A program made the position numbers and the translations under genes. A DNA stretch of 64,000 nt from Pseudomonas protegens (GTDB lineage: Bacteria > Pseudomonadota > Gammaproteobacteria > Pseudomonadales > Pseudomonadaceae). Of the stretch, positions 6,226-24,092 are shown piece by piece. The notes under the pieces were generated by a model. It was not told the DNA's origin, ran no database searches, and was given only the letters and a program-made list of their open reading frames with translations. The number at the start of each line of letters is the position of its first letter. Positions within the stretch are counted from its first letter, which is position 1. The DNA lies in assembly GCF_013407925.2 (NCBI RefSeq), contig NZ_CP060201.1, positions 2,108,001 through 2,172,000 on the forward strand, written 5' to 3'.

Positions 6226-8781
6226 TCAGCTCATCAGCCCCAGGGCCTGGGCCTTGGCCACGGCCTGGGTGCGCCGCTCCACCCCCAGCTTGCTGTGGAT
6301 CCTGCGACCGTGGGTCTTCACCGTGTGCAGAGAGATGAACAACTGCTCGGCAATCTGCTGGTTGGAGCAGCCCTGGGCTATCAATTGCAGCACCTGCAAC
6401 TCCCGCAGGCTGAGCAGGCTCTCGTGATGCTCTGGCGGCGCCTGGGCCGCCAGGGCGGGCGAGCTGTCGGCTGGCGGCAGCAAGCCCGGTTGCCGCAGGC
6501 GCAACTCGTGCAGGGCGTGGGGCAGATTGCACCGCGCCGCCAGGGCCTGCCCGGCCTCCAGGGCCTGGGCCGCCAGAGCCTGATCGTCGAGCCTGAAGGC
6601 CACCTCGGCCAGGACCAGTTGCACCTGGACCTCCAGCCCCAGCATGCCGTGGCGCCGAGCCCGGGCCAGCAGCCCCTGCAAGGTGGCCACCGGCGCCTGG
6701 GCCCGTCCCAGATGCACCTCGGCCAGCACCAGCAGGCATTCGATACTCGGGATCAGTTCCAGACTGGCCGGAGGCGCCTGCAGTGCCTGGGGCCCGCGAT
6801 AATGCCGGAGTACCCGGCTCAGGGCTTCGTGAGCCAGATCCGCCCGCCCCTGCTGCAGCCAGAGTTGGCTGCTGACCTGCAACAGCACGCCACGGTAGAC
6901 GCTGTCCGGAATCTGCCGTTGCTGCATCAGTCGCTCGGCGTCTCGCAGGCGGACGAAGGCCTGGGCGTAGTCGCCCTGGTTGGCCGCCAACTGGGCCTCA
7001 CCGAGAAAGCCGTACAAGGCGCGCTTGTCATGACTGATCAGGCAATCCTCAAGGCCACGGCGAAAATACCCGGCTGCTTGCTGATCCTGTCCCTGACGCA
7101 GGGCCAGACGCCCCAGGCGCAAGGCCAGGCGCCCCAGCAAGGGCGTGGCCCGCAGTGCTTGCCCGGACAAGCGCTCGATCACCTGTTCCAGCAGGCTCTG
7201 CGCCCGATGCGGCGCGCCGCGCTGTTCCAGCAGTTGGGCATGGTCGAGCTCCAGCAGGCCTTCGAACAGCAGCGCATCCTGGGCCCGGGCCAGGCACAGG
7301 GCTTGCCGATTGAGGGACTGGGCCACGTCCAGCTCGCCACACAGCAAGGCTTGCTGAGTCAGCCCGGACAGGCACAGCAGGCGGGTGGTCCAGGCGCTGT
7401 CGTCCAAGGCGTTCAAGGCTTCGCGAAAATGCTGCCGCGCGGCCTCCATGCGCCCGCCCAGGTGCAACAGCCAGCCCTGCTGCGCCTGCCAGCGGGCCAG
7501 TAGCTGACGCTGTTCGGCGGCCGACGGTTGCGGCGTGAAACGGGCCATCTGGGCCATGCACTGCTCGGCCTGTTCGAAGCGTCCGGCAAACAGCATGGCC
7601 GCCGCCAAGAGCCCCAGTAACTGCGGACTGCCCAGCAACAGCTCGGCGCCCTGGCGCTCGTGCAGTTGCAACAACAGCAAGCCATTGAGGCGCTGGAACA
7701 GGAACTCGATATTGAAATGCTCCAGCAGGCTGACCGCCACTTCATATTCCTCGGCCAGCAGCGCCTGCTCAAAAGCCGACTGCCAATCCTCCTGAGCGGT
7801 AAACCACTGACAGGCCCGGCGATGCCAGGAGCGCGCCGTGGGCCAGGCTTCATCGCGCATCAGCCGGGCCAGGGGCGCAAACACCTGCAGCCAGTCGGCA
7901 CCGCCTTCCCAGGGTTCGATAAAGCAGCCCAGGTCCTGCAGGGTGCGCAGGTACTGGGCCCCTTCTCCGGCGCCAAACAGGTGCTCGCACAGCTCGGCAT
8001 TGAACCGCGGCATATGGGCCAGCACTTGCCAGACTTCCGCCAGTTCCGCGGGCAACACGCTGAACAGCTCGTGCTCCAGGTATTCGAGCAAGGTGTTGGG
8101 GCGCCCGGGCTTGCAGGGCTGGGTGACCCGCTCGCTGCCGTCGAGCAAGGCGATACGCACCCCCGCGCACCAGCCGCCGCTGCGTTGCAGGACGCGGCTG
8201 GCGGTTTGCGTACACAAGGGTTGCGGCAGGCGTTGCAGCAAACCCTCGATATCGTTCTGGCTGAACGCCAGGGCGCTGCCGTCCAGTTCGTAGAGCTGGT
8301 CGTCCAGCAACAGTCGTGGCCAGTTGCATTGAGGTCGGCGGCGGCTGCCGATCCACCAGGTGAGTACGGGGTTGTCGACGCTCAGCAAGCGGTCCAGCAG
8401 CAGGTCCAGATCGGCCGCCGGCAGCCGGCAATAGTCATCGATACACAGCCAGGCCGGGCCCGACAGCTGCGCCAGATGGGCCAGCAGCGCTGCCGGTTCG
8501 GCCATGGCCAGGCCCAAGGCCGAGGCCAGGGCGCGACACAGCTCCTCGGGGGTCTGCCGCGCGCCGCCCAGGGGCAACCAGATGACCCGGCAGCCCTCGG
8601 GGGCCTGCTGCAGGCATTCGCTGAGCAGCGCGGTCTTGCCGCTGCCGGCGGGGGCGCACAACAACTTGACCCGCGCGCTGGAGAGCAGCAGGGGCTCACT
8701 CAGGTGGCGGCGTGGAGCATGATGGGAGGACAAACGGGGCATGAACCCGGGACGCTCTGGACAACGAGTCATGGCAGTCAT
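6226..8781 (-). CDS. MalT-like LuxR-family ATPase regulator (LAL type)
   Basis: An 851-residue large ATP-binding LuxR regulator. Near the N-terminus a Walker A motif (CAPAGSGKTALLSE, about residues 41-54) and a Walker B-like strand (WLCIDDYCRL, near residue 113) define the NTPase. A long helical, TPR-like middle follows. The C-terminus holds a LuxR DNA-binding domain (LSLRELQVLQLIAQGCSNQQ, continuing IAEQLFISLHTVKTH). Such proteins bind an inducer and ATP, then activate promoters. It lies directly downstream of, and on the same strand as, the DUF1302/DUF1329 operon but beyond that operon's terminator. It is the likely regulator of the neighbouring genes; the inducer is unknown. An alternative ATG lies 9 bases inside. 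Confidence 0.88.
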   Translation of the reverse strand: MTAMTRCPERPGFMPRLSSHHAPRRHLSEPLLLSSARVKLLCAPAGSGKTALLSECLQQAPEGCRVIWLPLGGARQTPEELCRALASALGLAMAEPAALLAHLAQLSGPAWLCIDDYCRLPAADLDLLLDRLLSVDNPVLTWWIGSRRRPQCNWPRLLLDDQLYELDGSALAFSQNDIEGLLQRLPQPLCTQTASRVLQRSGGWCAGVRIALLDGSERVTQPCKPGRPNTLLEYLEHELFSVLPAELAEVWQVLAHMPRFNAELCEHLFGAGEGAQYLRTLQDLGCFIEPWEGGADWLQVFAPLARLMRDEAWPTARSWHRRACQWFTAQEDWQSAFEQALLAEEYEVAVSLLEHFNIEFLFQRLNGLLLLQLHERQGAELLLGSPQLLGLLAAAMLFAGRFEQAEQCMAQMARFTPQPSAAEQRQLLARWQAQQGWLLHLGGRMEAARQHFREALNALDDSAWTTRLLCLSGLTQQALLCGELDVAQSLNRQALCLARAQDALLFEGLLELDHAQLLEQRGAPHRAQSLLEQVIERLSGQALRATPLLGRLALRLGRLALRQGQDQQAAGYFRRGLEDCLISHDKRALYGFLGEAQLAANQGDYAQAFVRLRDAERLMQQRQIPDSVYRGVLLQVSSQLWLQQGRADLAHEALSRVLRHYRGPQALQAPPASLELIPSIECLLVLAEVHLGRAQAPVATLQGLLARARRHGMLGLEVQVQLVLAEVAFRLDDQALAAQALEAGQALAARCNLPHALHELRLRQPGLLPPADSSPALAAQAPPEHHESLLSLRELQVLQLIAQGCSNQQIAEQLFISLHTVKTHGRRIHSKLGVERRTQAVAKAQALGLMS

Positions 8782-14212: not shown

Positions 14213-15105
14213 ACGGCCTGACGCGATGGCGATGGCAGCCTGTCGCGAAAGCCCAGGTAATGCTTGAGCACCGGCAGCGGCGCCTCGATCTGCGGGTAAT
14301 GGCCGATGCCCGGCAGCAGCACGGTGTCCGGCTCGGGGATCAACTGGCAGTAGCGCTCCACCATGTGCGCCCCGGAGATCGGGTCCTGGGCGCCGTCGAT
14401 CACCCGCAGCGGCACCTCGCCGCGTTGCATGGCACTGACCCAACGCTCGCGCTGGGCGCGCCGCTCGGGGATGTAGGCGATCAACTTGTGCAGGATGCGC
14501 GGCCCGTTGTTGCTGTGCACCAGGCTCCAGAAATCGTCCAGGACCGACTCGCTGGGCCGGGTCTGGGGGCCGAAGATCTGTCGGAAGCTGTTCGCCAGGC
14601 CGTGGCGGCTGAAGGCCCGCCCAAGCATCCAGCCCAGCGGACTGAGCAGGAGCTTCTGGGTCAGCACCGGGCGATGGGTTTCCGGAAACAGGCCGCCATT
14701 GAGAAACACGCAGCTGGCAATCGCGATCCGCTGTTCATAGTGCCGGGCCAGCAGCTCCTGGGCGACGCTGTCGCCGTAGTCATGGGCCAGCAGGTGCACC
14801 GGCTGGCGGACCTGCACCTGAGCCAGCAGCGCCTGCTGCAAGTCCGCCTGCTCCAGCAGGCTGTACTCGTGCTCCAGGGGCTTGTCCGAGTCGCCGAAGC
14901 CGAGCATGTCGCAGGCGATCACCTGATAACGCCGCGCCAGGGGTTGCCACAGGTAATGCCAGTCCCAGCTGGCCGTGGGAAAACCATGGATCAACAGCAG
15001 CGGCTCGCCATGCCCCGCCACCCAGTAACGAATGCGCCGGCCGCGGAACTCGAAGTCCTTGCCGCGCTTGCGCCAGACACAAAGAGGAATCTCGGCAATA
15101 GGCAT
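14203..15105 (-). CDS. alpha/beta hydrolase, MEST/epoxide-hydrolase-like
   Basis: A 300-residue alpha/beta hydrolase. The oxyanion-hole motif HGFP is in LLIHGFPTASWDWHYLW. The nucleophile elbow reads LLAHDYGDSVAQELL, with Asp rather than Ser at the nucleophile position, as in epoxide hydrolases, haloalkane dehalogenases and the MEST family (whose HDYGD it matches). The acid is likely the Asp in DGAQDPISG and the base the His in LPGIGHYPQIE. It overlaps the class II aldolase stop by ATGA, so the two are co-translated. Substrate unknown. Confidence 0.85.
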   Translation of the reverse strand: MPIAEIPLCVWRKRGKDFEFRGRRIRYWVAGHGEPLLLIHGFPTASWDWHYLWQPLARRYQVIACDMLGFGDSDKPLEHEYSLLEQADLQQALLAQVQVRQPVHLLAHDYGDSVAQELLARHYEQRIAIASCVFLNGGLFPETHRPVLTQKLLLSPLGWMLGRAFSRHGLANSFRQIFGPQTRPSESVLDDFWSLVHSNNGPRILHKLIAYIPERRAQRERWVSAMQRGEVPLRVIDGAQDPISGAHMVERYCQLIPEPDTVLLPGIGHYPQIEAPLPVLKHYLGFRDRLPSPSRQAVGS

Positions 15106-15887
15106 CAGAGTTTATAACCCGGGTCGAGTTGATCGAGTTTGCGCAGCAGGGCCGGCCAGGCCAGCACCCCGCCCATGCCCTGGGCACTGCGGGTGACCCC
15201 GGCGATCATCGCCTTGGCCCCGCTCAGGATGGATGGGGCAATGGCCATCAGCTCGGCGCCGCCGCCCTGCGCCAGCACCTGGATCTCGCAGGCGCGCTGG
15301 AAGATGAACATCATCAGAAAGGTGTCGGCGATGCTGGCCCCGCAGGTCAGCAAGCCATGGTTGTGCAGCAGCAGAAAGTTGTTGTCCCCCAGATCGGCCT
15401 GCAGCCGCACCTTCTCCTCGGGGTTCAGGGCCACCCCTTCATAGGGGTGATGGCCCAGGCTCGACAGGACAAACAGCGACTGCTGACTGATGGGCAGCAC
15501 CCCCTGCTTCTGCGCCGACACGGCAACCCCGGCGGCGGTATGGGTATGCAGCACACAGAGCACATCGTGGCGCACCGCATGCACGGCACTGTGGATGGTG
15601 TAGCCGGCCGGGTTGATCTCGTAGGGGCTGTCCATCAGCTTGTTGCCGGCCTGATCGACCTTCACCAGGCTGGAGGCGGTGATCTCGTGGAACATCATGC
15701 CGAACGGGTTGATCAGAAAGTCTTCGGTGCCCGGCACCTTGGCGGAGATGTGAGTGAAGATCAGGTCGTCCCAGCCATGCATCGCCACCAGGCGGTAGCA
15801 GGCGGCCAGGTCCAGGCGGGTTTGCCACTCGATGGCGCTGACCTGGTTTTTCACACTCGCTGTCGATTGAACGGGGGCTGAGCTCAC
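15105..15887 (-). CDS. class II aldolase/adducin family protein
   Basis: A 260-residue protein of the class II (zinc) aldolase/adducin superfamily. Zinc ligands are visible as HTHT in VLCVLHTHTAAGVAVS and the later His of FLLLHNHGLLTCG. The N-terminal block LDLAACYRLVAMHGWDDLIFTHIS is typical of the oxidoreductase/adducin-like branch rather than true sugar-phosphate aldolases. It starts at GTG with GAGG 8 bases upstream and is the first gene of a pair with the MEST-like hydrolase. The reaction cannot be assigned from sequence. Confidence 0.85.
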   Translation of the reverse strand: MSSAPVQSTASVKNQVSAIEWQTRLDLAACYRLVAMHGWDDLIFTHISAKVPGTEDFLINPFGMMFHEITASSLVKVDQAGNKLMDSPYEINPAGYTIHSAVHAVRHDVLCVLHTHTAAGVAVSAQKQGVLPISQQSLFVLSSLGHHPYEGVALNPEEKVRLQADLGDNNFLLLHNHGLLTCGASIADTFLMMFIFQRACEIQVLAQGGGAELMAIAPSILSGAKAMIAGVTRSAQGMGGVLAWPALLRKLDQLDPGYKL

Positions 15888-16032
15888 GGCAAGGACCTCG
15901 GTGACGGTTCTTATTGGAGGAGAGGACCCTCAGAGTCTAGACAGCCCGAAGCGCGGGCGGAGTTGCATTGCCAGCCAGCTTGATGACCGAGCGGGTCAGC
16001 CGGAAAAAAGGCTCTGGCGCGAGGGTTTCACG

Positions 16033-16719
16033 TCAAAGCACCGACGCCAGCAAAGGGGCGGCGAACAGGTTCAACAGCCCGGTCAGGACCATGACCAGAC
16101 CGGCCACCGAGCCCTCCTCGCCGCCGACTTCATGGGCCCGGCTGACCCCAGCTCCGTGGGCCCCCACCCCAAACAAGGCGCCCCGGGCCAGGGCACTGCG
16201 CAGGGGCAGCCAGCGCAGCAGCACACCGCCAAGCATGGCGCCGAACACCCCGGTGAACATCACGAACACCGCCGTCAGTTCGGGCACGCCGCCCAGGTCA
16301 TGGGCCAGGGGCATGGCGAACGGCGTGGTAATGGAACGGGGCACCAGGGACAGCGTCACCGAGCTGTCCAGGGCCAGCATCTTCGCCAGGCCGAAGGAAC
16401 TGCCGATGGACGCGGCGCTGCCCGCCAGCATGCCCAGCAGCAGGGCCGACCAGTGGCGCATCAGCAGGTGCCGCTGCTGCCAGATGGGAATCGCAAAGGC
16501 CACGGTCACCGGCCCCAGCACCAGCATCAGCCAGTGGGTGTTGGCGGCATATTCGGCGTAGGCGGTGTGCAGCGGCACGGCAATCGCTAGCAACAGGGCC
16601 GGCACCAGGATCAGCGGCGACAGCAGGTAGCGCCCGGTGCGCCGATAGATCCAGCGGCTGAACAGATAGGCCCCCAGGGTCAGGGCCAGCCAGAACATCG
16701 GCATCAGCTCAAGCTTCAT
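16033..16719 (-). CDS. lrgB: LrgB/CidB family inner-membrane protein
   Basis: A 228-residue polytopic protein of the LrgB/CidB (YohK) family. The hallmark run SSVTLSLVPRSITTPFAMPL and the segment GVGAHGAGVSRAHEVGGEEG are present. LrgB works with LrgA-type holin-like proteins in murein hydrolase control or organic-acid (pyruvate/glycolate) transport in other bacteria. Its start overlaps the end of lrgA by 11 bases. Controlled, by inference, by the divergent LysR regulator. Confidence 0.9.
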   Translation of the reverse strand: MKLELMPMFWLALTLGAYLFSRWIYRRTGRYLLSPLILVPALLLAIAVPLHTAYAEYAANTHWLMLVLGPVTVAFAIPIWQQRHLLMRHWSALLLGMLAGSAASIGSSFGLAKMLALDSSVTLSLVPRSITTPFAMPLAHDLGGVPELTAVFVMFTGVFGAMLGGVLLRWLPLRSALARGALFGVGAHGAGVSRAHEVGGEEGSVAGLVMVLTGLLNLFAAPLLASVL

Positions 16720-17095
16720 GGCGCATTCTCCAGCGGCACACCCATTCCACGGTCAGCGCGGTCACCAGCATCACCAGCAAGGTGCTGATGCCGATCACCA
16801 GCAGGATCCGCCAGCCCTCCTCGCGCAGCAGGCTGCCGTAATCCAGCAGGCTCATCAGCGCCGGAATGAAAAACAGCAGCATCTCCGCCATCAGCAGGCC
16901 GGCCCCCAGTTGCAGCGTGGCCGGCTTGACCCAGCCCAGGGCGAAGGCCAGCAGCAACAGCCCAAGGCCGATGACCCCGCCGGGAATCGGCCAGGGCAGC
17001 CAGGTGGCCAGTTGGCAACCGAGAAAATAGATGGCCAGCAGCACCGCCAGTTCGCCAATCAGGCGGCTCAGGCGTTTACAGGTGGAAATGTTCAT
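16709..17095 (-). CDS. lrgA: LrgA/CidA family holin-like protein
   Basis: A 128-residue protein with four predicted transmembrane helices. The CidA/LrgA signature is seen as YFLGCQLATWLPWPIPGGVIG and later GWVKPATLQLGAGLLMAEMLLFFIPA. It forms a bicistron with lrgB. It could equally be called cidA; pseudomonad naming varies. Divergent from the LysR gene, 97 bases apart. Confidence 0.9.
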   Translation of the reverse strand: MNISTCKRLSRLIGELAVLLAIYFLGCQLATWLPWPIPGGVIGLGLLLLAFALGWVKPATLQLGAGLLMAEMLLFFIPALMSLLDYGSLLREEGWRILLVIGISTLLVMLVTALTVEWVCRWRMRHEA

Positions 17096-17170
17096 GGGGT
17101 CAGGTCCTCTCAGGGGCCCATTTTATGAAAAGCCCCCGCATCACCGAAGCGAATTGTTAGACTCGAAACC

Positions 17171-17185
17171 ATTCCAATCTGGAAT
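17171..17185. promoter_or_regulatory. LysR-type T-N11-A box
   Basis: The perfect dyad ATTCCA-ATC-TGGAAT contains a T-N11-A box (T 17172, A 17184) and sits 7 bases before the LysR-family start codon in the divergent lrgA/lysR spacer. This suits autoregulation by the adjacent regulator and control of lrgAB. Confidence 0.65.
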
Positions 17186-17192
17186 TACCACC

Positions 17193-18089
17193 ATGGATTT
17201 CAAACAACTGCGCAGCTTCGTCGAAGTGATGCGCCAGGGCGGTTTTACCCAGGCGGCCAAGACCCTGCACATCAGCCAGTCGGCCGTCAGCAAGCAGATC
17301 GCCCAGCTGGAACAGAGCCTGGGCACGCCCCTGCTGGAGCGCCAGGGCTCGCACATTCATCTGACTGCCGCCGGCAGCGTGGTCCTGCAACGGGCCGAGG
17401 GCATGCTGCGCCTGCGCCAGGAACTGCTCAGCGAACTGGACGACCTGAGTCAACTGGCCCGGGGCGAACTGCGCCTGGGCCTGCCGTTGCTGGGCAGCGA
17501 CGCACTGTTCGCCAGCCGCTTTGCCGAATACCGCCGGCGCTATCCGAACATCCAGGTGTCACTGCTCGAAGGCGGCAGCCTGAATGTCGAGCAGGCGGTG
17601 CGCAATGGCGAGCTGGAACTGGGCGGCAGCCTGACCCCCAAGGACCCGGCGTTCGCCTATCAGCCTTTTTGCGATGAGCCTCTGGATGCCTTGCTGCCCG
17701 CCGATCATCCCCTGGCGATGAACGCCCAGGTGCGCCTGGAAGAACTGGCGGATACCCCCTTCCTCCTCTATCAGCGCAGCTTTGTGCTCAACGACCGCCT
17801 GCTCCAGGCCTGCCAGCAAGTGGGCTTCACCCCCAAGGAGGGCGGGCGCAGTGGTCAGGCGGATTTTCTCGCGGCGCTGGTGGCCGCGGGACAAGGCGTA
17901 GTGTTACTGCCCAGTGTGGTGGCCCGCGGCCTGGTGCGGCCGGGGGTGGTGCGCCTGACACTCAAGGCGCCGGACTACCTGCGTTGGGATATCGCCTTCA
18001 TCTGGCGCCAGGGCGCTTATCTGTCCAAGGCAGCGCAAGCCTGGCTGGCGCTGCTGCGGGAACAGCCGGTCAGCCCCGCAGGGCGCTGA
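17193..18089 (+). CDS. LysR-family regulator of lrgAB (CidR-like)
   Basis: A 298-residue LysR-type regulator. The winged HTH is at residues 1-60 (MDFKQLRSFVEVMRQGGFTQ, then AAKTLHISQSAVSKQIAQLE), followed by a type 2 periplasmic-binding-like effector domain. The start MDFKQL is the family norm; the open frame extends upstream without an acceptable N-terminus. Divergence from lrgA/lrgB and the dyad box just before the ATG point to it as their activator, as CidR is in other bacteria. The 3' end overlaps the convergent flavodoxin gene by 20 bases. Confidence 0.88.
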   Translation: MDFKQLRSFVEVMRQGGFTQAAKTLHISQSAVSKQIAQLEQSLGTPLLERQGSHIHLTAAGSVVLQRAEGMLRLRQELLSELDDLSQLARGELRLGLPLLGSDALFASRFAEYRRRYPNIQVSLLEGGSLNVEQAVRNGELELGGSLTPKDPAFAYQPFCDEPLDALLPADHPLAMNAQVRLEELADTPFLLYQRSFVLNDRLLQACQQVGFTPKEGGRSGQADFLAALVAAGQGVVLLPSVVARGLVRPGVVRLTLKAPDYLRWDIAFIWRQGAYLSKAAQAWLALLREQPVSPAGR

Positions 18090-18528
18090 TCAGCTCGGCC
18101 AGCCAGGGCTCGGCGTCGGTTTTCGGGGTCACGCTCTCGCTGGCGTCCAGACGCAGCATCGGCAGCACTTCGCGCACGCCCAGTTCGGCGAACAACTCGC
18201 GCATCTGCTCACCGCCACCGCAAAAGGTATCGCCGTAGCTGGAGTCGCCGAGGCCGATCACCGCCCCCGGCAGCCCGCGCCAGGCGGCGGGCAACTGATC
18301 GCGAATGCTCGAATACAGCGGCAGCAGGTTGTCCGGCAGTTCACCCATGCCGGTGGTCGAGGTGACCGCCAGCAACGCCTGGGGCGCGAAGGCCTGGACC
18401 TCGGCCAAGCTGGCGCGCGGGTTGTGCCAGGCCTCGAAACCGGCGGCATTGAGGAGTTTGGCGGCGTGCCGGGCGACTTCTTCAGCCGTGCCGTAGACCG
18501 AGCCGGAAAGGATGGCGACTTTCATCAA
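18070..18528 (-). CDS. flavodoxin, MioC-like
   Basis: A 152-residue FMN-binding flavodoxin. The phosphate-binding loop is SGSVYGTAEEVA near the N-terminus, with the later flavin contacts TSTTGMGELPDN and GLGDSSYGDTFCGGG. Short-chain flavodoxins of this type carry electrons in the cytosol (MioC supports biotin synthase in E. coli). It is a single-gene unit whose tail overlaps the LysR gene end by 20 bases in convergent orientation. Confidence 0.87.
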   Translation of the reverse strand: MMKVAILSGSVYGTAEEVARHAAKLLNAAGFEAWHNPRASLAEVQAFAPQALLAVTSTTGMGELPDNLLPLYSSIRDQLPAAWRGLPGAVIGLGDSSYGDTFCGGGEQMRELFAELGVREVLPMLRLDASESVTPKTDAEPWLAELISALRG

Positions 18529-18680
18529 TCTGTTCCTGAAGCTGACTAAAAGACTGGGATATTACCAGCTACGGAGTAAAATCCCTTTCCTGGCATGCCG
18601 CGCCTCTGGATAGCCCCAGTGGACAGCGTGCCAGCATGTCTTAGAATCCAGCACCAACTGATCGATAGCGGAACTTCGGG

Positions 18681-19139
18681 ATGATCAACGCGCATCTTCT
18701 GCAACGGATGATCGACGCCTCCAACGACGGGATTGTGGTCGCGGAACAGGAAGGCGAAGACAACATCGTGATTTACGTGAACCCGGCTTTCGAGCGATTG
18801 ACGGGCTACAGCGCCGATGAGGTGCTTTACCAGGACTGTCGCTTCCTGCAATCCGGGGACCGCGACCAGCCGGGCCTGGAGCGGATTCGCCAGGCCCTGA
18901 GCAAGGGCCAGCCGTGCCGCGAGGTGCTGCGCAACTACCGCAAGGACGGCAGCCACTTCTGGAACGAGCTGTCGATCACTCCGGTGTTCAACGACAGCGA
19001 CCAACTGACCTACTTCATCGGCGTGCAAAAGGATGTCAGCGCCCAGATCAAGAGTCAGCAGCGCCTGCAGCAGCTGGAACAACAGCTGGCCGCCGCCGAG
19101 GCCGAACTGGCCGCGCTCAAGGCGACCGACGGGCACTAA
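18681..19139 (+). CDS. short LOV blue-light photoreceptor (PpSB1-LOV type)
   Basis: A 152-residue protein that is essentially a single LOV (PAS) domain with a short C-terminal coiled coil (QQRLQQLEQQLAAAEAELAA) and no effector. The photoactive Cys is residue 53 in YQDCRFLQSGDRDQ; RNYRKDGSHFWNELSITPV holds the flavin-contacting Asn, and YFIGVQKDVS the Ibeta Gln. The whole sequence closely follows PpSB1-LOV of P. putida, a blue-light sensor that switches dimer state with light. It lies two genes from a MerR gene of the LitR class, its known signalling partner type. Missing effector output implies signalling by protein contact. Confidence 0.93.
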   Translation: MINAHLLQRMIDASNDGIVVAEQEGEDNIVIYVNPAFERLTGYSADEVLYQDCRFLQSGDRDQPGLERIRQALSKGQPCREVLRNYRKDGSHFWNELSITPVFNDSDQLTYFIGVQKDVSAQIKSQQRLQQLEQQLAAAEAELAALKATDGH

Positions 19140-19208
19140 TAAAATTCATCTTTGGTGGTCTGTAGGGATATTCCCCGCCGATCAGCCATCCACCCTTCGA
19201 GCAACATC

Positions 19209-19814
19209 ATGCAGCGTGACGCCCTCCTCACCCAGGATGAACTGGACTTCATCCGGACCATGCAGCACAACCCGCAGCTCAATGTGCGCGAAAGCACATC
19301 CAGCCTGCTGGTCAATGGCGGCGCACAGGTCCGTGACTTGCTTACCCGCCTGGCGGCCAACGAAAAGGTCACTCTCCAGGCGCACTTCGACAATCAGCAG
19401 ATGACCTTTCCCCTGCAACTGGTGGAAGACGAGTTCCATGCCCTGCATCTGCGCCTGGGGGTGCCGAGCATCTTCGAAGACGGCCCCATGGTCCGGCCCT
19501 GGCGCCTGACGCTGGAAGAACCGGTTGCCCTGGAAAACGCCAAAGGCCAGCCGGGACGCCTGTGGGTGCGGGAAGTGTCGTTCAAGGGCGTGTTGCTGGA
19601 GATCCGCAACCGGACCCGCCCACCCAAGCAGTTCGCCCAGTGGTTCAGCCCCTCGGGGTATGAGCGGATTGCCCTGCATGGGCGCTTCGAGCGCCAGACC
19701 GAAGCCGGTTTCTACGCCTACCGCCTGGATCAGCGTGATGCGGAAGAAACCGAGCGCCTGCGCCAGTTCATCCTCCAGCAGCACCGCCACAGCCATCCGG
19801 CCCTGCACGCTTGA
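19209..19814 (+). CDS. unknown protein with a PilZ-like segment
   Basis: A 201-residue soluble protein. The N-terminal half (about residues 1-95) resembles a YcgR-N type domain in length, and residues near 115-130 read WVREVSFKGVLLEIRNRT, where EVSFKG matches the PilZ D/N-x-S-x-x-G pattern apart from the first residue. The Arg motif that binds c-di-GMP is not clearly present, so binding is doubtful. It sits between the LOV gene and the convergent MerR gene, starting 69 bases after the LOV stop on the same strand, so it may be co-transcribed with the photoreceptor. No firm family. Confidence 0.75.
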   Translation: MQRDALLTQDELDFIRTMQHNPQLNVRESTSSLLVNGGAQVRDLLTRLAANEKVTLQAHFDNQQMTFPLQLVEDEFHALHLRLGVPSIFEDGPMVRPWRLTLEEPVALENAKGQPGRLWVREVSFKGVLLEIRNRTRPPKQFAQWFSPSGYERIALHGRFERQTEAGFYAYRLDQRDAEETERLRQFILQQHRHSHPALHA

Positions 19815-19832
19815 GCCGGTCCGACGACGCTT

Positions 19833-20792
19833 TCAGGTATCCAGGCGCCCACTGAGGAACTGCCGCAGGCGCTTCTGCATCAGGCGTCCGTCATTACCCA
19901 GGCAGGCCACCGGCGAACCGCTGAGACGGTCCTGCGCCAGGTCCGCCGCATCTCCGGCCAGCATCAGCGGACAATCCAGGGTCAGCGCCAGACGCTGAAG
20001 ACGCTTGGGCAGTTCCGCCGTCGGCGCATGATTGGAAAACACCACCAGGGCCACGGGCTGGAGCTTCTCGCAGACCAGGGTCAGCTCCTCCAGGGGCGCC
20101 CCCGGCCCCAGCAGACGGACACCGATCTGGTCATGCCCGAGCATCAGCGCCGCCACCAGCAGCTCCAGCTCGCGACACTGCTCGTTGAACGCCGTCAGCA
20201 ACAATTGCCGACTCTGGCCGGCCCGCTGCAGCAACAGGCGCTGAGTGATCCGCGCGCGCAAGAAACCGTCCAGAAACAGCCACTCGCTGGTCTGGCCGAA
20301 ATCGTCCCGAACCTGCAGCAGTTGCTTCCAGAACGGCAGGAAGATGTCCTGGAACACCACCGGCAGGGCATAACTGGAAAAGATCTGCCCATACAGACGC
20401 TCCAGCAGCTCTTCATCGAAGGCGCTCACCGCCAGCTTCAACTGATCGCGCCACTGGCCGTACTCGCCTTGCTGAGGATCGTCCAGCGGTGCCTTGACCT
20501 GAACCTGGGCCGCGCGGTTCTTGGCCATGATCTTGCCCACCTTGCTCACCGCCACGCCGCGCTCGATCCAGCCGAGAATCTCCCGCACCGCCTCAACATC
20601 GTGCATCGAATACAGGCGATGCCCGCTTTCGGTGCGCGTGGGTTGAATCAGGCCGTAGCGTCGCTCCCAGGCCCGCAGGGTCACCGGATTGATGCCGGTC
20701 AGGCGCGCCACCTCACGAATCGGAAACAACTCGTCCTGAGGGACGGAGTCAGGGGCAGGCGTGACAGGGACAAGTTCAGTCATGACGGGCAT
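19833..20792 (-). CDS. MerR-family regulator, class II LitR/PplR type
   Basis: A 319-residue regulator. The MerR HTH occupies residues 22-92 (FPIREVARLTGINPVTLRAW then ERRYGLIQPTRTESGHRLYS), followed by a CarH/LitR-like helical and Rossmann-type cobalamin domain. The residue that should be the cobalt-ligating His is Cys206 in AFNEQCRELE, and the cap Glu-His is Glu-Trp (TSEWLFLDGFLRAR). This marks the vitamin-B12-independent class II LitR group (PplR proteins of P. putida), which act with short LOV proteins. Divergent from the ABM-fol genes, so it is their likely light-responsive regulator. Confidence 0.9.
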   Translation of the reverse strand: MPVMTELVPVTPAPDSVPQDELFPIREVARLTGINPVTLRAWERRYGLIQPTRTESGHRLYSMHDVEAVREILGWIERGVAVSKVGKIMAKNRAAQVQVKAPLDDPQQGEYGQWRDQLKLAVSAFDEELLERLYGQIFSSYALPVVFQDIFLPFWKQLLQVRDDFGQTSEWLFLDGFLRARITQRLLLQRAGQSRQLLLTAFNEQCRELELLVAALMLGHDQIGVRLLGPGAPLEELTLVCEKLQPVALVVFSNHAPTAELPKRLQRLALTLDCPLMLAGDAADLAQDRLSGSPVACLGNDGRLMQKRLRQFLSGRLDT

Positions 20793-21004
20793 CTGGGGGA
20801 GAACACACCGATAAACAAAGTGGCGCTCATTCTACTCTTCCTCAGCGCCAATGCCTCAAGCCCGAGAAAAACCGACCAGCGTCGTTGGTCCAGCGCCGGC
20901 AATCGGGAATAATCCTTGCTTGTTCCAGACGCGGCCCACTACCCCGGTGCCACGTCAAGCGCCTGCCTTATCCAGGCGGCGCATTGGTTTTACGGAGATA
21001 CATA

Positions 21005-21574
21005 ATGTCTACCTCACCCGTCACCCTGATGGTTGCCCGGCGCGTTGCCGACGGCCGTTACCAGGACCTGATCGCCTGGCTGCGCGAAGGCGAACAACTG
21101 GCCACCGACTTTCCCGGCTACCTGGGTTCCGGTGTCCTTGCACCCCCGCCCGACGATGACGAATTCCAGATCATCTTCCGCTTTGCCGACGAACACACCC
21201 TGCACACCTGGGAGCACTCCGCCTCGCGTACCGCCTGGCTGGCCCGGGGCAGCGATCTGTTTGCCCACCCGTCTGAGCACCGGGTCAGCGGTATCGATGG
21301 CTGGTTCGGCGCGGCCGGACAGCGACCGCCACGCTGGAAGCAGGCCGTGGCCATCTGGCTGGCGTTCTTCCCGGTATCGCTGCTGTTCAACTTCGTCCTC
21401 GGCCCCTTGCTCAGTGATCTGAGCCTGCTGCCCCGGGTGTTTGTCAGCACCCTGGCGCTGACCCCGCTGATGGTCTATTTCTTCATTCCGCTGTCCACCC
21501 GCCTGCTGGCCAACTGGCTCAACAGCACACCGGCGCGCGTATTGCCGAGCGCCCCCTCGACGCAGAATCCGTGA
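21005..21574 (+). CDS. ABM-domain protein with a membrane anchor
   Basis: A 189-residue protein. The first 95 residues form an antibiotic-biosynthesis-monooxygenase (ABM) type ferredoxin-like domain (VTLMVARRVADGRYQDLIAW; FQIIFRFADEHTLHTWEHSA). Two hydrophobic helices follow at about 120-142 and 150-172. Such fusions are common in pseudomonads, but the reaction is unknown. The TACGGAG ribosome site lies 5 bases before the ATG. It is the first gene on the right of the MerR regulator and is divergent from it, so it is a candidate light-regulated gene. Confidence 0.8.
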   Translation: MSTSPVTLMVARRVADGRYQDLIAWLREGEQLATDFPGYLGSGVLAPPPDDDEFQIIFRFADEHTLHTWEHSASRTAWLARGSDLFAHPSEHRVSGIDGWFGAAGQRPPRWKQAVAIWLAFFPVSLLFNFVLGPLLSDLSLLPRVFVSTLALTPLMVYFFIPLSTRLLANWLNSTPARVLPSAPSTQNP

Positions 21575-21636
21575 TTCGCCGGCAAGCCGGCTCCTGCAGC
21601 GCTTCGCGCCGACCGCAGGAGCTGGCCAGCCCGTTG
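21574..21636. repeat. REP-type repeat pair
   Basis: Two facing copies of the Pseudomonas REP hairpin: TTCGCCGGCAAGCCGGCTCC, then a second containing GCAGGAGCTGGCCAGCCCG. It separates the ABM gene from folM. Confidence 0.7.
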
Positions 21637-21699
21637 CCTGCAGGCACAGGTTCTCCCCCGCTGGTATAGTTTTCCCCCTACCCGCGACGCGAGCCCTCC

Positions 21700-22410
21700 A
21701 TGAACGCTTCCCCCGCCCCGATCCTGATCACTGGTGCCAGCCAGCGTGTCGGCCTGCATTGCGCCCTGCGCCTGCTGGAAGACGGGCAGCCGGTGATCGT
21801 CACTTATCGCAGCCAGCGCCCGGGCCTTGAAACCCTGCGTGAAAAAGGCGCCACCCTGCTGTTCGCCGACCTGTCCAGCGAAGCCGGAATCCTGGCCCTG
21901 ATCAGCGAGCTGAAAAACCACACCGAGCGCTTGCGGGCCATCGTCCACAACGCCTCGGAATGGCTGGAAGAAAGCCCCGGCGAGGAAAGCGCCGCCTTTG
22001 CCCGGATGTTCAGCGTGCACATGCTCGCGCCCTACCTGATCAACCTGCATTGCGCAGAATTGCTGCAGCGTTCAACCCCGGCGGACATCATCCACATCAG
22101 CGACGACGTGACCCGCAAGGGCAGCAGCAAGCACATTGGCTACTGCGCCAGCAAAGCCGGGCTGGACAGCCTGACCCTGTCTTTCGCGGCGAAATACGCC
22201 CCGACAATCAAGGTCAACGGCATCGCTCCGGCCCTGCTATTGTTCAATCCCGACGACGACGCGGCGTACCGCGCCAAGACCCTGGCCAAATCCGCGCTGG
22301 GCATCGAACCCGGCAGCGAAGTGATCTACCAGAGCCTGCGCTACCTGCTGGACAACCCCTATGTCACCGGCACCACCCTGACCGTAAACGGCGGGCGACA
22401 CATCAAGTAA
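21700..22410 (+). CDS. folM: dihydromonapterin reductase
   Basis: A 236-residue SDR enzyme that reduces dihydromonapterin to tetrahydromonapterin, the pterin cofactor used by pseudomonad phenylalanine hydroxylase. The glycine motif is the FolM form ITGASQRVGLHCALRLLEDG, and the catalytic Tyr-Lys are in HIGYCASKAGLDSL. The C-terminus TGTTLTVNGGRHIK is typical. It is followed after 22 bases by folE and then folX, giving three steps of one pathway in one operon. Assignment as FolM rather than a generic SDR relies on this context plus the motif. Confidence 0.92.
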   Translation: MNASPAPILITGASQRVGLHCALRLLEDGQPVIVTYRSQRPGLETLREKGATLLFADLSSEAGILALISELKNHTERLRAIVHNASEWLEESPGEESAAFARMFSVHMLAPYLINLHCAELLQRSTPADIIHISDDVTRKGSSKHIGYCASKAGLDSLTLSFAAKYAPTIKVNGIAPALLLFNPDDDAAYRAKTLAKSALGIEPGSEVIYQSLRYLLDNPYVTGTTLTVNGGRHIK

Positions 22411-22432
22411 GCCGGCCCCGTGAGGACCTTGC

Positions 22433-22993
22433 ATGACTCTTTCCCTGCCCCAGCACTACCGCGAGATCCTCAAGGATCTGGGCGAAGACCCCGAACGCGA
22501 AGGTTTGCTCGACACCCCCAAGCGCGCAGCCAAAGCCATGCAGTACCTGTGTCACGGCTACAGTCAGTCGCTGGAGGACATCGTCAATGGCGCACTGTTC
22601 GCCTCCAACAGCGATGAAATGGTGATCGTCGCCGACATCGAACTGTATTCCCTGTGCGAACATCACCTGCTGCCCTTCATCGGCAAGGCCCATGTGGCTT
22701 ATATTCCCACCGGCAAGGTACTGGGGCTGTCGAAGATCGCCCGCATCGTCGATATGTTCGCCAGGCGCCTGCAGATCCAGGAAAACCTCACCCGGGAAAT
22801 CGCCGAGGCGGTGCAGAGCGTGACCCAGGCCGCCGGCGTCGCGGTAGTGATCGAGGCCAAGCACATGTGCATGATGATGCGCGGCGTCGAGAAACAGAAT
22901 TCCACCATGCACACCTCGGTGATGCTCGGCGCCTTTCGCGATTCGAGCACCACTCGCCAGGAATTCCTGCAATTGATTGGACGGAGCAAGTAG
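22433..22993 (+). CDS. folE: GTP cyclohydrolase I (FolE1)
   Basis: Converts GTP to 7,8-dihydroneopterin triphosphate, the entry to pterin and folate synthesis. The 186-residue length is standard for the zinc-dependent FolE. Zinc ligands are visible: Cys and His in [19 protein letters not shown] and the later Cys in [17 protein letters not shown]-type catalytic residues follow ([19 protein letters not shown]). It sits between folM and folX, so its product is probably channelled to monapterin. In P. putida a folE gene is among the known light-induced genes, matching the LOV/MerR genes just upstream. Confidence 0.95.
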
Positions 22994-22995
22994 CA

Positions 22996-23367
22996 ATGCC
23001 ACAACTTCAGCCAGGAATGGCTCGCATCCGGGTCAAGGACCTGCTCCTGCGGACCTACATCGGAATCAACGAGGAAGAAATCCTCAACAAGCAGAATGTG
23101 CTGATCAACCTGACCATCCTGTACCCCGCCCAGGAGGCGGTGCGTGACAACGATATCGATCATGCGCTGAACTATCGCACCATCACCAAGGCGATCATTG
23201 CCCACGTCGAAGGAAACCGCTTCGCCCTGCTGGAGCGCCTGACCCAGGAACTGCTGGATCTGGTGATGAGCAACGACTCGGTGCATTACGCCGAGGTCGA
23301 GGTCGACAAACCCCACGCCCTGCGCTTTGCCGAATCGGTATCCATCACGTTGGCGGCAAGTCGCTAG
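22996..23367 (+). CDS. folX: dihydroneopterin triphosphate 2'-epimerase
   Basis: A 123-residue FolB/FolX-fold enzyme that epimerises dihydroneopterin triphosphate to dihydromonapterin triphosphate. Diagnostic residues are in [20 protein letters not shown] and [13 protein letters not shown]. The start [14 protein letters not shown] at 22996 lies 2 bases after the folE stop; the open frame continues upstream inside folE and is not the true start. FolX is preferred over FolB (aldolase) because of the neighbouring folM and the length and N-terminus. Confidence 0.93.
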
Positions 23368-23461: not shown

Positions 23462-23758
23462 ATGTCCCCTCAACAACGCCTGGAACTGGAAGCCGCGGCC
23501 TTTCGCCGCCTGGTGGCCCATCTGGACAGCCGCAAGGACGTGCAGAACATCGACCTGATGAACCTGGCCGGGTTCTGCCGCAACTGCCTGTCCAAGTGGT
23601 ACAAGGCCGAGGCCGACGAGCGCCAGATCGAGGTCAGCCTCGATGAGGCCCGTGAAGTGGTGTACGGCATGCCCTACGCCGAATGGAAAAATCTCTACCA
23701 GAAAGAAGCCAGCGCCGAGCAGCAAGCGGCGTTTGCCAAAGGAAAAACCCATGACTGA
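23462..23758 (+). CDS. DUF1244 family protein
   Basis: A 98-residue protein of the DUF1244 family, small helical proteins with conserved Cys residues. The hallmark DLMNLAGFCRNCLSKWY (about residues 31-47) and YGMPYAEWK are both intact. Its function has not been established. The stop overlaps the start of the HopJ-family gene by 8 bases, so the pair are co-translated. Confidence 0.88.
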   Translation: MSPQQRLELEAAAFRRLVAHLDSRKDVQNIDLMNLAGFCRNCLSKWYKAEADERQIEVSLDEAREVVYGMPYAEWKNLYQKEASAEQQAAFAKGKTHD

Positions 23759-24092
23759 CCTGAACACCCTGCGCGCCAGCCTGAACAGCGGTGAACATGC
23801 TTTTGCCGACACCCTGGCCTTTGTCGCCGCCGGTTACGACTACCAGCCCCAGGCGTTCAACAATGGCGGCGTGGAAAACGCTGCCGGGCAGAACGAAGGT
23901 TCGTGCAAGACCCTGGGCCTGGCCCTGCTGGAAGGCCTGAGCGACCAAGAGGCGCTGCTGGCCTTTGGCGAACACTACCGCTCGGTACTGGCCACGCCCG
24001 AAGGCAGCGATCACGGCAACATCCGCGCGCTGATCGCCCACGGTCTGGCCGGGGTCAAGTTCGCCGCCCAGCCGCTGACCCGTACTCTGTAG
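23751..24092 (+). CDS. HopJ type III effector family protein
   Basis: A 113-residue member of the HopJ family, named after a P. syringae effector but found in many bacteria without type III secretion. Conserved blocks are ADTLAFVAAGYDYQPQAFNN and NEGSCKTLGLALLEGLS. Nothing in this window suggests secretion, and the overlap with the DUF1244 gene points to a housekeeping role. Function unknown. Confidence 0.88.
   Translation: MTDLNTLRASLNSGEHAFADTLAFVAAGYDYQPQAFNNGGVENAAGQNEGSCKTLGLALLEGLSDQEALLAFGEHYRSVLATPEGSDHGNIRALIAHGLAGVKFAAQPLTRTL

Follow-up and report, generated by a model that had tools for sequence, protein, structure and literature searches.

A Pseudomonas protegens-group copy of the short LOV/class II LitR locus that has probably lost its folM operator

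In Pseudomonas putida KT2440, the blue-light system of Sumi et al. 2020 reportedly comprises three LitR regulators (PplR1-3), two short LOV proteins (PpSB1-LOV and PpSB2-LOV) and the DNA motif T(G/A)TACA-N12-TGTA(C/T)A, and pplR1, phrB, ufaM and a folE are said to be light-inducible there. Here, a related locus is described in a 64,000-nucleotide stretch of DNA (the window, G000:C1:2108001-2172000) of a 6.82-Mb single-contig P. protegens-group genome, which carries the same protein families and the same motif, with two LitR proteins and one short LOV against three and two in KT2440. The locus also resembles that of P. mendocina NBRC 14162, in which pmlR2, PME15565 and pmSB-LOV lie together with folM-folE-folX (Maruyama et al. 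2022, PMC9758184). In that report, blue light raises folM 2.4-2.5-fold and folE 1.6-3.3-fold, phrB and ufaM are induced 25-33-fold, far above folM and folE, and the expression of pmlR2 and pmSB-LOV hardly changes. PmlR2 shifts the P. mendocina folM promoter in a gel shift, a TGTACA-N12-GGTATA box lies 95 bp upstream of folM, and in BIAcore and run-off transcription assays lit LOV attaches to PmlR2 and inhibits the binding of DNA (PMC9758184). The strain is described there as not transformable, hence the absence of mutants. Taken as a whole, the window probably holds a copy of this published locus whose switch acts on other outputs and whose folM operator has been lost.

All seven genes of the locus are intact in open reading frame, Pfam and NCBIfam checks, and the layout given in a preliminary description of this DNA is confirmed: a short LOV gene with Cys53, a MerR/LitR gene one gene away, then an ABM-like gene and folM-folE-folX on the strand opposite to LitR. 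The window and P. mendocina loci are alike in the short LOV with Cys53, the middle gene, the class II LitR of about 320 residues and folM-folE-folX. Among the best 80 of 451 named relatives, the closest folM loci belong to Pseudomonas sp. Au-Pse12, Pseudomonas sp. PH1b and P. protegens strains (FolM identity 92-94%), and 67 of the 80 keep the seven-gene order and strands (two of the loci, L220 and L221, come from one assembly). Across 199 genomes of the genus, 155 encode FolM and 148 folM regions were examined; LitR lies divergent to folM within about 1.3-1.5 kb in 123 of these regions. Because the layout is kept in so many named loci and genus regions, the arrangement is not due to chance, although the sampled genomes are kin and their counts are not independent.

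The short LOV blue-light receptor (18681..19139, plus strand, 152 amino acids) is of the PmSB-LOV/PpSB-LOV type by family and structure matches. It consists of a single LOV domain without an effector domain, and its photoactive Cys53 sits in YQDCRFLQ. The protein matches PDB entry 7r5n over its full length (E 2.6e-90), as well as the short LOV structures 7yx0 and 3sw1, and is the only short LOV in the genome (E 6.6e-99, with the next best match at 1e-13 in longer proteins). By analogy with these relatives, it would bind flavin mononucleotide and form a light-induced adduct.

The regulator encoded at 19833..20792 (minus strand, 319 amino acids) is assigned to the class II LitR (PmlR2/PplR) type within the MerR family from Pfam and NCBIfam matches, structural relatives and residue columns. 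It matches PF13411, the MerR helix-turn-helix, and scores 83.8 bits over residues 22-275 against the CarH model NF052513, below the equivalog cut-off of 400. Its best solved sequence relatives are the CarH/LitR entries 3whp and 5c8d; the match to 5c8d, a class I CarH of Thermus, covers residues 17-253 and includes the MerR DNA-binding domain. The axial His of class I CarH, in ERHEIG, is replaced by Arg in the EQCREL of the window LitR, and in the window protein and 84 relatives this column holds 76 Arg and 9 His. PF02607 (B12-binding_2) gives no match in the window LitR at E 0.001 or better, whereas P. mendocina PmlR2 has such a Pfam match and the genome's own second LitR, PplR1, matches at 1.9e-7. 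Judged from the replaced His, vitamin B12 photochemistry is not expected of the window LitR. One gene separates the LitR gene from its short LOV neighbour, an arrangement shared by 76 of the 80 named loci.

The two loci differ at the folM promoter. The P. mendocina site TGTACA-N12-GGTATA is intact and the GGTATA downstream half is common to both, whereas the upstream TGTACA half is lost in the window. Searching TRTACA-N12-TGTAYA with up to three mismatches returns no site at 18336-23101 of the window, and the whole-genome search at one mismatch or fewer returns none at the fol locus. At three mismatches, the entire window holds 32 box-like sites against a shuffle mean of 12.7, and such weak sites therefore mean little. 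What stands ahead of folM (21643..21670, plus strand) is GGCACA (21643-21648), N14 and GGTATA (21663-21668), a putative degenerate remnant of a LitR box; by eye, GGTATA lies inside the extended -10-like stretch TGGTATAGT. The ten closest named loci (L215-L224, 89-94% FolM identity) show the same erosion: there, the half-site at N12 keeps 0, 2, 1, 2, 1, 2, 2, 1, 1 and 0 of 6 bases; in the next nearest, L225 and L226, it keeps 5 and 6 of 6. Three relatives whose folM boxes are perfect (L211-L213, from G177, G014 and G006) share the DNA-reading helix of LitR, NPVTLRAWERRYGLIQPTRT, without change. Because the helix is unchanged in these relatives, we infer that the folM site was lost in the P. protegens group and that the specificity of its reader stayed the same; an altered LitR specificity near P. 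protegens is unsupported. A REP-like inverted repeat (repetitive extragenic palindromic; recognized by eye) lies at window positions 21577-21625, between the ABM-like gene and folM and just 5' of the lost half-site.

The genome holds perfect boxes at other places, namely C1:118392, 709890, 4486707 and 4486757, and a one-mismatch box, TGTACA-N12-GGTATA, at 4488051. The boxes at 4486707 and 4486757 precede rudS, pplR1, phrB, a short-chain dehydrogenase gene, a flavin adenine dinucleotide (FAD) oxidoreductase gene, a DUF1365 gene and a ufaM-like CMAS-type gene; RudS combines DUF1722 with a desulfurase domain, and its name follows PMC11417400. At 709890, TGTACA-N12-TGTACA lies upstream of a CHASE3-HAMP-MCP chemoreceptor gene (frame 6950-8656 of G000:C1:703000-718000), and the box sequence is identical in G061, G071 and G073. 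The box at 118392 lies between a gene for a CHASE3-GAF hybrid histidine kinase and a divergent response-regulator gene. Boxes stand at all three places in G061, G071 and G073 as well, the three near relatives searched, where the proteins are 80-98% identical.

These observations fit the following scheme. In the dark, LitR and its paralogue PplR1 would repress promoters bearing TGTACA-N12-TGTAYA boxes; under blue light, Cys53 of LOV would form its flavin adduct, and the lit protein would bind LitR and remove it from DNA, a step observed in vitro in P. mendocina and expected here by homology. A comparable anti-repressor role of a LOV protein is reported for LdaP/PpsR of Dinoroseobacter shibae (PMC10890935), which differs in its repressor, PpsR, and in its targets, the photosynthesis genes. 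The outputs in the window genome would most likely be the rudS-pplR1-phrB...ufaM operon, the neighbouring FAD oxidoreductase, the CHASE3 chemoreceptor and the CHASE3 kinase/response-regulator pair. The folM-folE-folX genes would keep their ancestral place and a sigma-70-like -10, minus the upstream half of the operator; because that half is lost, they would be expressed with little or no response to light. The preliminary description had proposed that blue light raises reduced-pterin supply through this locus. Its LOV/LitR switch stands, and fol genes are indeed induced in P. mendocina; in the window genome, which has no box at folM, light control of the pterin genes is doubtful. As an account of the genus, this hypothesis is sound, and it was already published in 2022; the new points are the loss of the folM operator and the two additional boxed signalling loci.

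Comparison across the genus indicates how old the lost site is and which regulator may use it. Genomes were labelled LOV+ at E 1e-35; G013 and G180 (E about 1e-37) are nonetheless counted as LOV-less, and G186, G189, G190, G192 and G195 are LOV-less by absence from the LOV match list. Anchoring on the -10 was achieved for 141 of the 148 folM promoters (129 LOV+ and 12 LOV-less). Among the LOV+ promoters, TGTACA with at least 5 of 6 bases stands at N12 from GGTATA in 43 of 129, and elsewhere between N4 and N24 each spacing gives 0-4, except N16 with 17 (AGTACA); the LOV-less promoters have it at N12 in 6 of 12, with 3 at N13 and 2 at N22. A box with one mismatch or fewer lies 40-160 bp before folM in 46 of the 148 regions, 31 of them perfect. 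From this N12 preference and the frequency of the box, as far as promoter sequences can tell, the box is the old folM operator of the genus.

Given this distribution, the folM box might be mainly a PplR1 operator, with the LOV/LitR pair a mere neighbour and fol control tied to PplR1, which almost all genomes have, an explanation that we consider rather unlikely. It draws on the independence of the box from LOV, since the box is found at one mismatch or fewer in 8 of 16 LOV-less and 38 of 132 LOV+ promoters. With a PplR1-type protein encoded in 15 of the 16 LOV-less genomes with folM (and in 18 of 19 of all LOV-less genomes searched), the box at folM may be used chiefly by PplR1. On the other hand, PmlR2 itself shifts the P. 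mendocina folM promoter (PMC9758184), the helices of PplR1 and LitR are nearly the same, so both may act, and kinship among the sampled genomes weakens the counts. A joint loss of LOV and the folM box is unsupported by the same frequencies. Sensing of B12 in LOV-less genomes is likewise unsupported, the CarH His being found in 0 of 25 aligned PplR1-type proteins, the genome's own included. The LOV-less genomes that keep the box are G056, G094, G149, G180 (with a weak LOV match), G181, G182, G184 and G192; their PplR1 lacks the B12 ligand.

Alternatively, blue light may still de-repress folM-folE-folX in this genome through LOV and LitR acting on a degenerate or re-spaced operator, which we regard as unlikely. 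Induction of folM by light and binding of its promoter by LitR in P. mendocina (PMC9758184), the occurrence of the folM box across the genus, the conserved gene order and the residual GGCACA-N14-GGTATA, shared with relatives, all speak for it. Against it stand the disappearance of the half-site from the ten nearest named loci with the LitR helix unchanged, and the perfect boxes elsewhere in the same genome. Several further observations nevertheless count against operator loss and re-direction of the switch. Specifically, GGCACA-N14-GGTATA has two mismatches when the spacing is left free; when the 143-bp region was shuffled 300 times, just 5 shuffles reached this score. Of the 10 nearest named loci, 7 carry GGCACA at N14 or N15. 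A weak working site at the window promoter is possible on these sequence features, and another spacing, such as the AGTACA-N16 of 17 genomes, may be tolerated. In addition, sites with one mismatch or fewer number 24 per strand in the window genome against 11 for a reversed control pattern and are thus partly due to chance. A P. putida gene named folE2, whichever folE copy that name denotes, is reported as light-inducible in a review (PMC8508746). Finally, one P. mendocina gel shift kept the lit LOV-LitR complex on DNA; its authors favour the BIAcore result and attribute the discrepancy to gel-shift conditions (PMC9758184).

With the folM operator read as lost, the remaining boxes tentatively suggest a rewired regulon in the P. 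protegens group and its closest relatives: the pterin operon would have left it, and the chemoreceptor and kinase/regulator pair would have joined. In a comparison of perfect boxes in eight chosen genomes, where the reversed control pattern gives 0-1 matches per genome, the rudS boxes are present in G058, G108, G100, G033 and G165; no perfect box was met at the chemoreceptor or the kinase/regulator in these five genomes, orthologues of the two having been searched for within the near relatives alone. Neither was found as a light target in the literature searched, which did not cover the P. putida gene list (Sumi et al. 2020). If rewiring has occurred, blue light would alter not the pterin supply but the choice of signals that attract swimming cells or draw a response from them. 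One LOV/LitR reader seems to swap targets within the genus, between pterin synthesis and, near P. protegens, a chemoreceptor and a two-component pair, which offers a lead for further work. The locus also extends the evidence for a known system to a further clade and carries a warning: synteny here outlasts the operator, and gene order alone is no proof of light control. Further perfect boxes (L298, L314 and L320-L323) occur in G033, G100 and G165, at places where none of the five target proteins tested finds a match.

The gene between LOV and LitR (19209..19814, plus strand) encodes a 201-residue protein with a C-terminal PilZ fold and no assigned function, probably at the position of P. mendocina PME15565. 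It has no Pfam or NCBIfam match; its AlphaFold model is confident at about residues 101-190 only (mean pLDDT, the predicted local distance difference test score, 61.9), and Foldseek ranks PilZ proteins highest (E 3.5e-4 to 1e-3). That this gene adds a third component to the switch and couples light to cyclic-di-GMP is very improbable. Its position, which 76 of the 80 named loci share, and the predicted PilZ fold would suit such a role, but the gene and the light pair each occur without the other. Of 199 genomes, 191 have a match to it, 25 of the 27 counted LOV-less among them; at least 10 of the 16 LOV-less genomes with folM have it no more than about 2 kb from folM; and five genomes (G006, G070, G079, G141 and G169) that all have LOV, LitR and a perfect folM box give no match. 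Its RPWR and EVSFKG, which presumably do no more than resemble the usual PilZ ligand motifs, also count against the role.

The other neighbour, a 189-residue ABM-like protein (21005..21574, plus strand), matches Pfam ABM at 22.9 bits, below the curated cut-off of 23.1. It is a usual companion of the operon, matched in 127 of the 148 folM upstream regions and without a match in 21. In the 126 regions that include its start and more than 60 bp ahead of it, no box with one mismatch or fewer lies between -250 and +30 bp of that start. Because of this box-less start and the 21 regions without a match, the gene does not look like a light target.

The pterin genes themselves are well defined and lie on the plus strand: folM, dihydromonapterin reductase (21700..22410; PRK06483, 359.4 bits, cut-off 249); folE, GTP cyclohydrolase I (22433..22993; TIGR00063, above the NCBIfam cut-off) and one of three folE copies in the genome; and folX, dihydroneopterin triphosphate 2'-epimerase (22996..23367; PRK11245, 193.7 bits, cut-off 152). 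The tetrahydromonapterin branch is thus complete, each gene scoring above its curated cut-off. As to specificity, a P. aeruginosa FolM homologue is reported to prefer dihydrofolate, which bears on FolM here, and the same review gives tetrahydromonapterin as the cofactor of phenylalanine hydroxylase (PMC13259868). Two uses of the pterin had been suggested. The photolyase/cryptochrome antenna is unlikely: antennae are methenyltetrahydrofolate (MTHF) or 8-hydroxy-5-deazaflavin (8-HDF; PMC13274461), FolX and FolM lead to tetrahydromonapterin, and the single genome match to PF03441, the photolyase FAD domain, is phrB of the pplR1 operon, a search that did not extend to a cryB-like protein of another family. 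Phenylalanine hydroxylase appears the better option because the genome encodes one Biopterin_H protein of that family (G000:C1:1432693), and the operon would probably serve it.

Beyond the locus, the region ahead of LOV (15105-18528 of the window) holds Aldolase_II, LrgB, LrgA, LysR and flavodoxin genes, and a DUF1244 gene and a HopJ-family gene, both on the plus strand, follow 3' of folX at 23462-24092.

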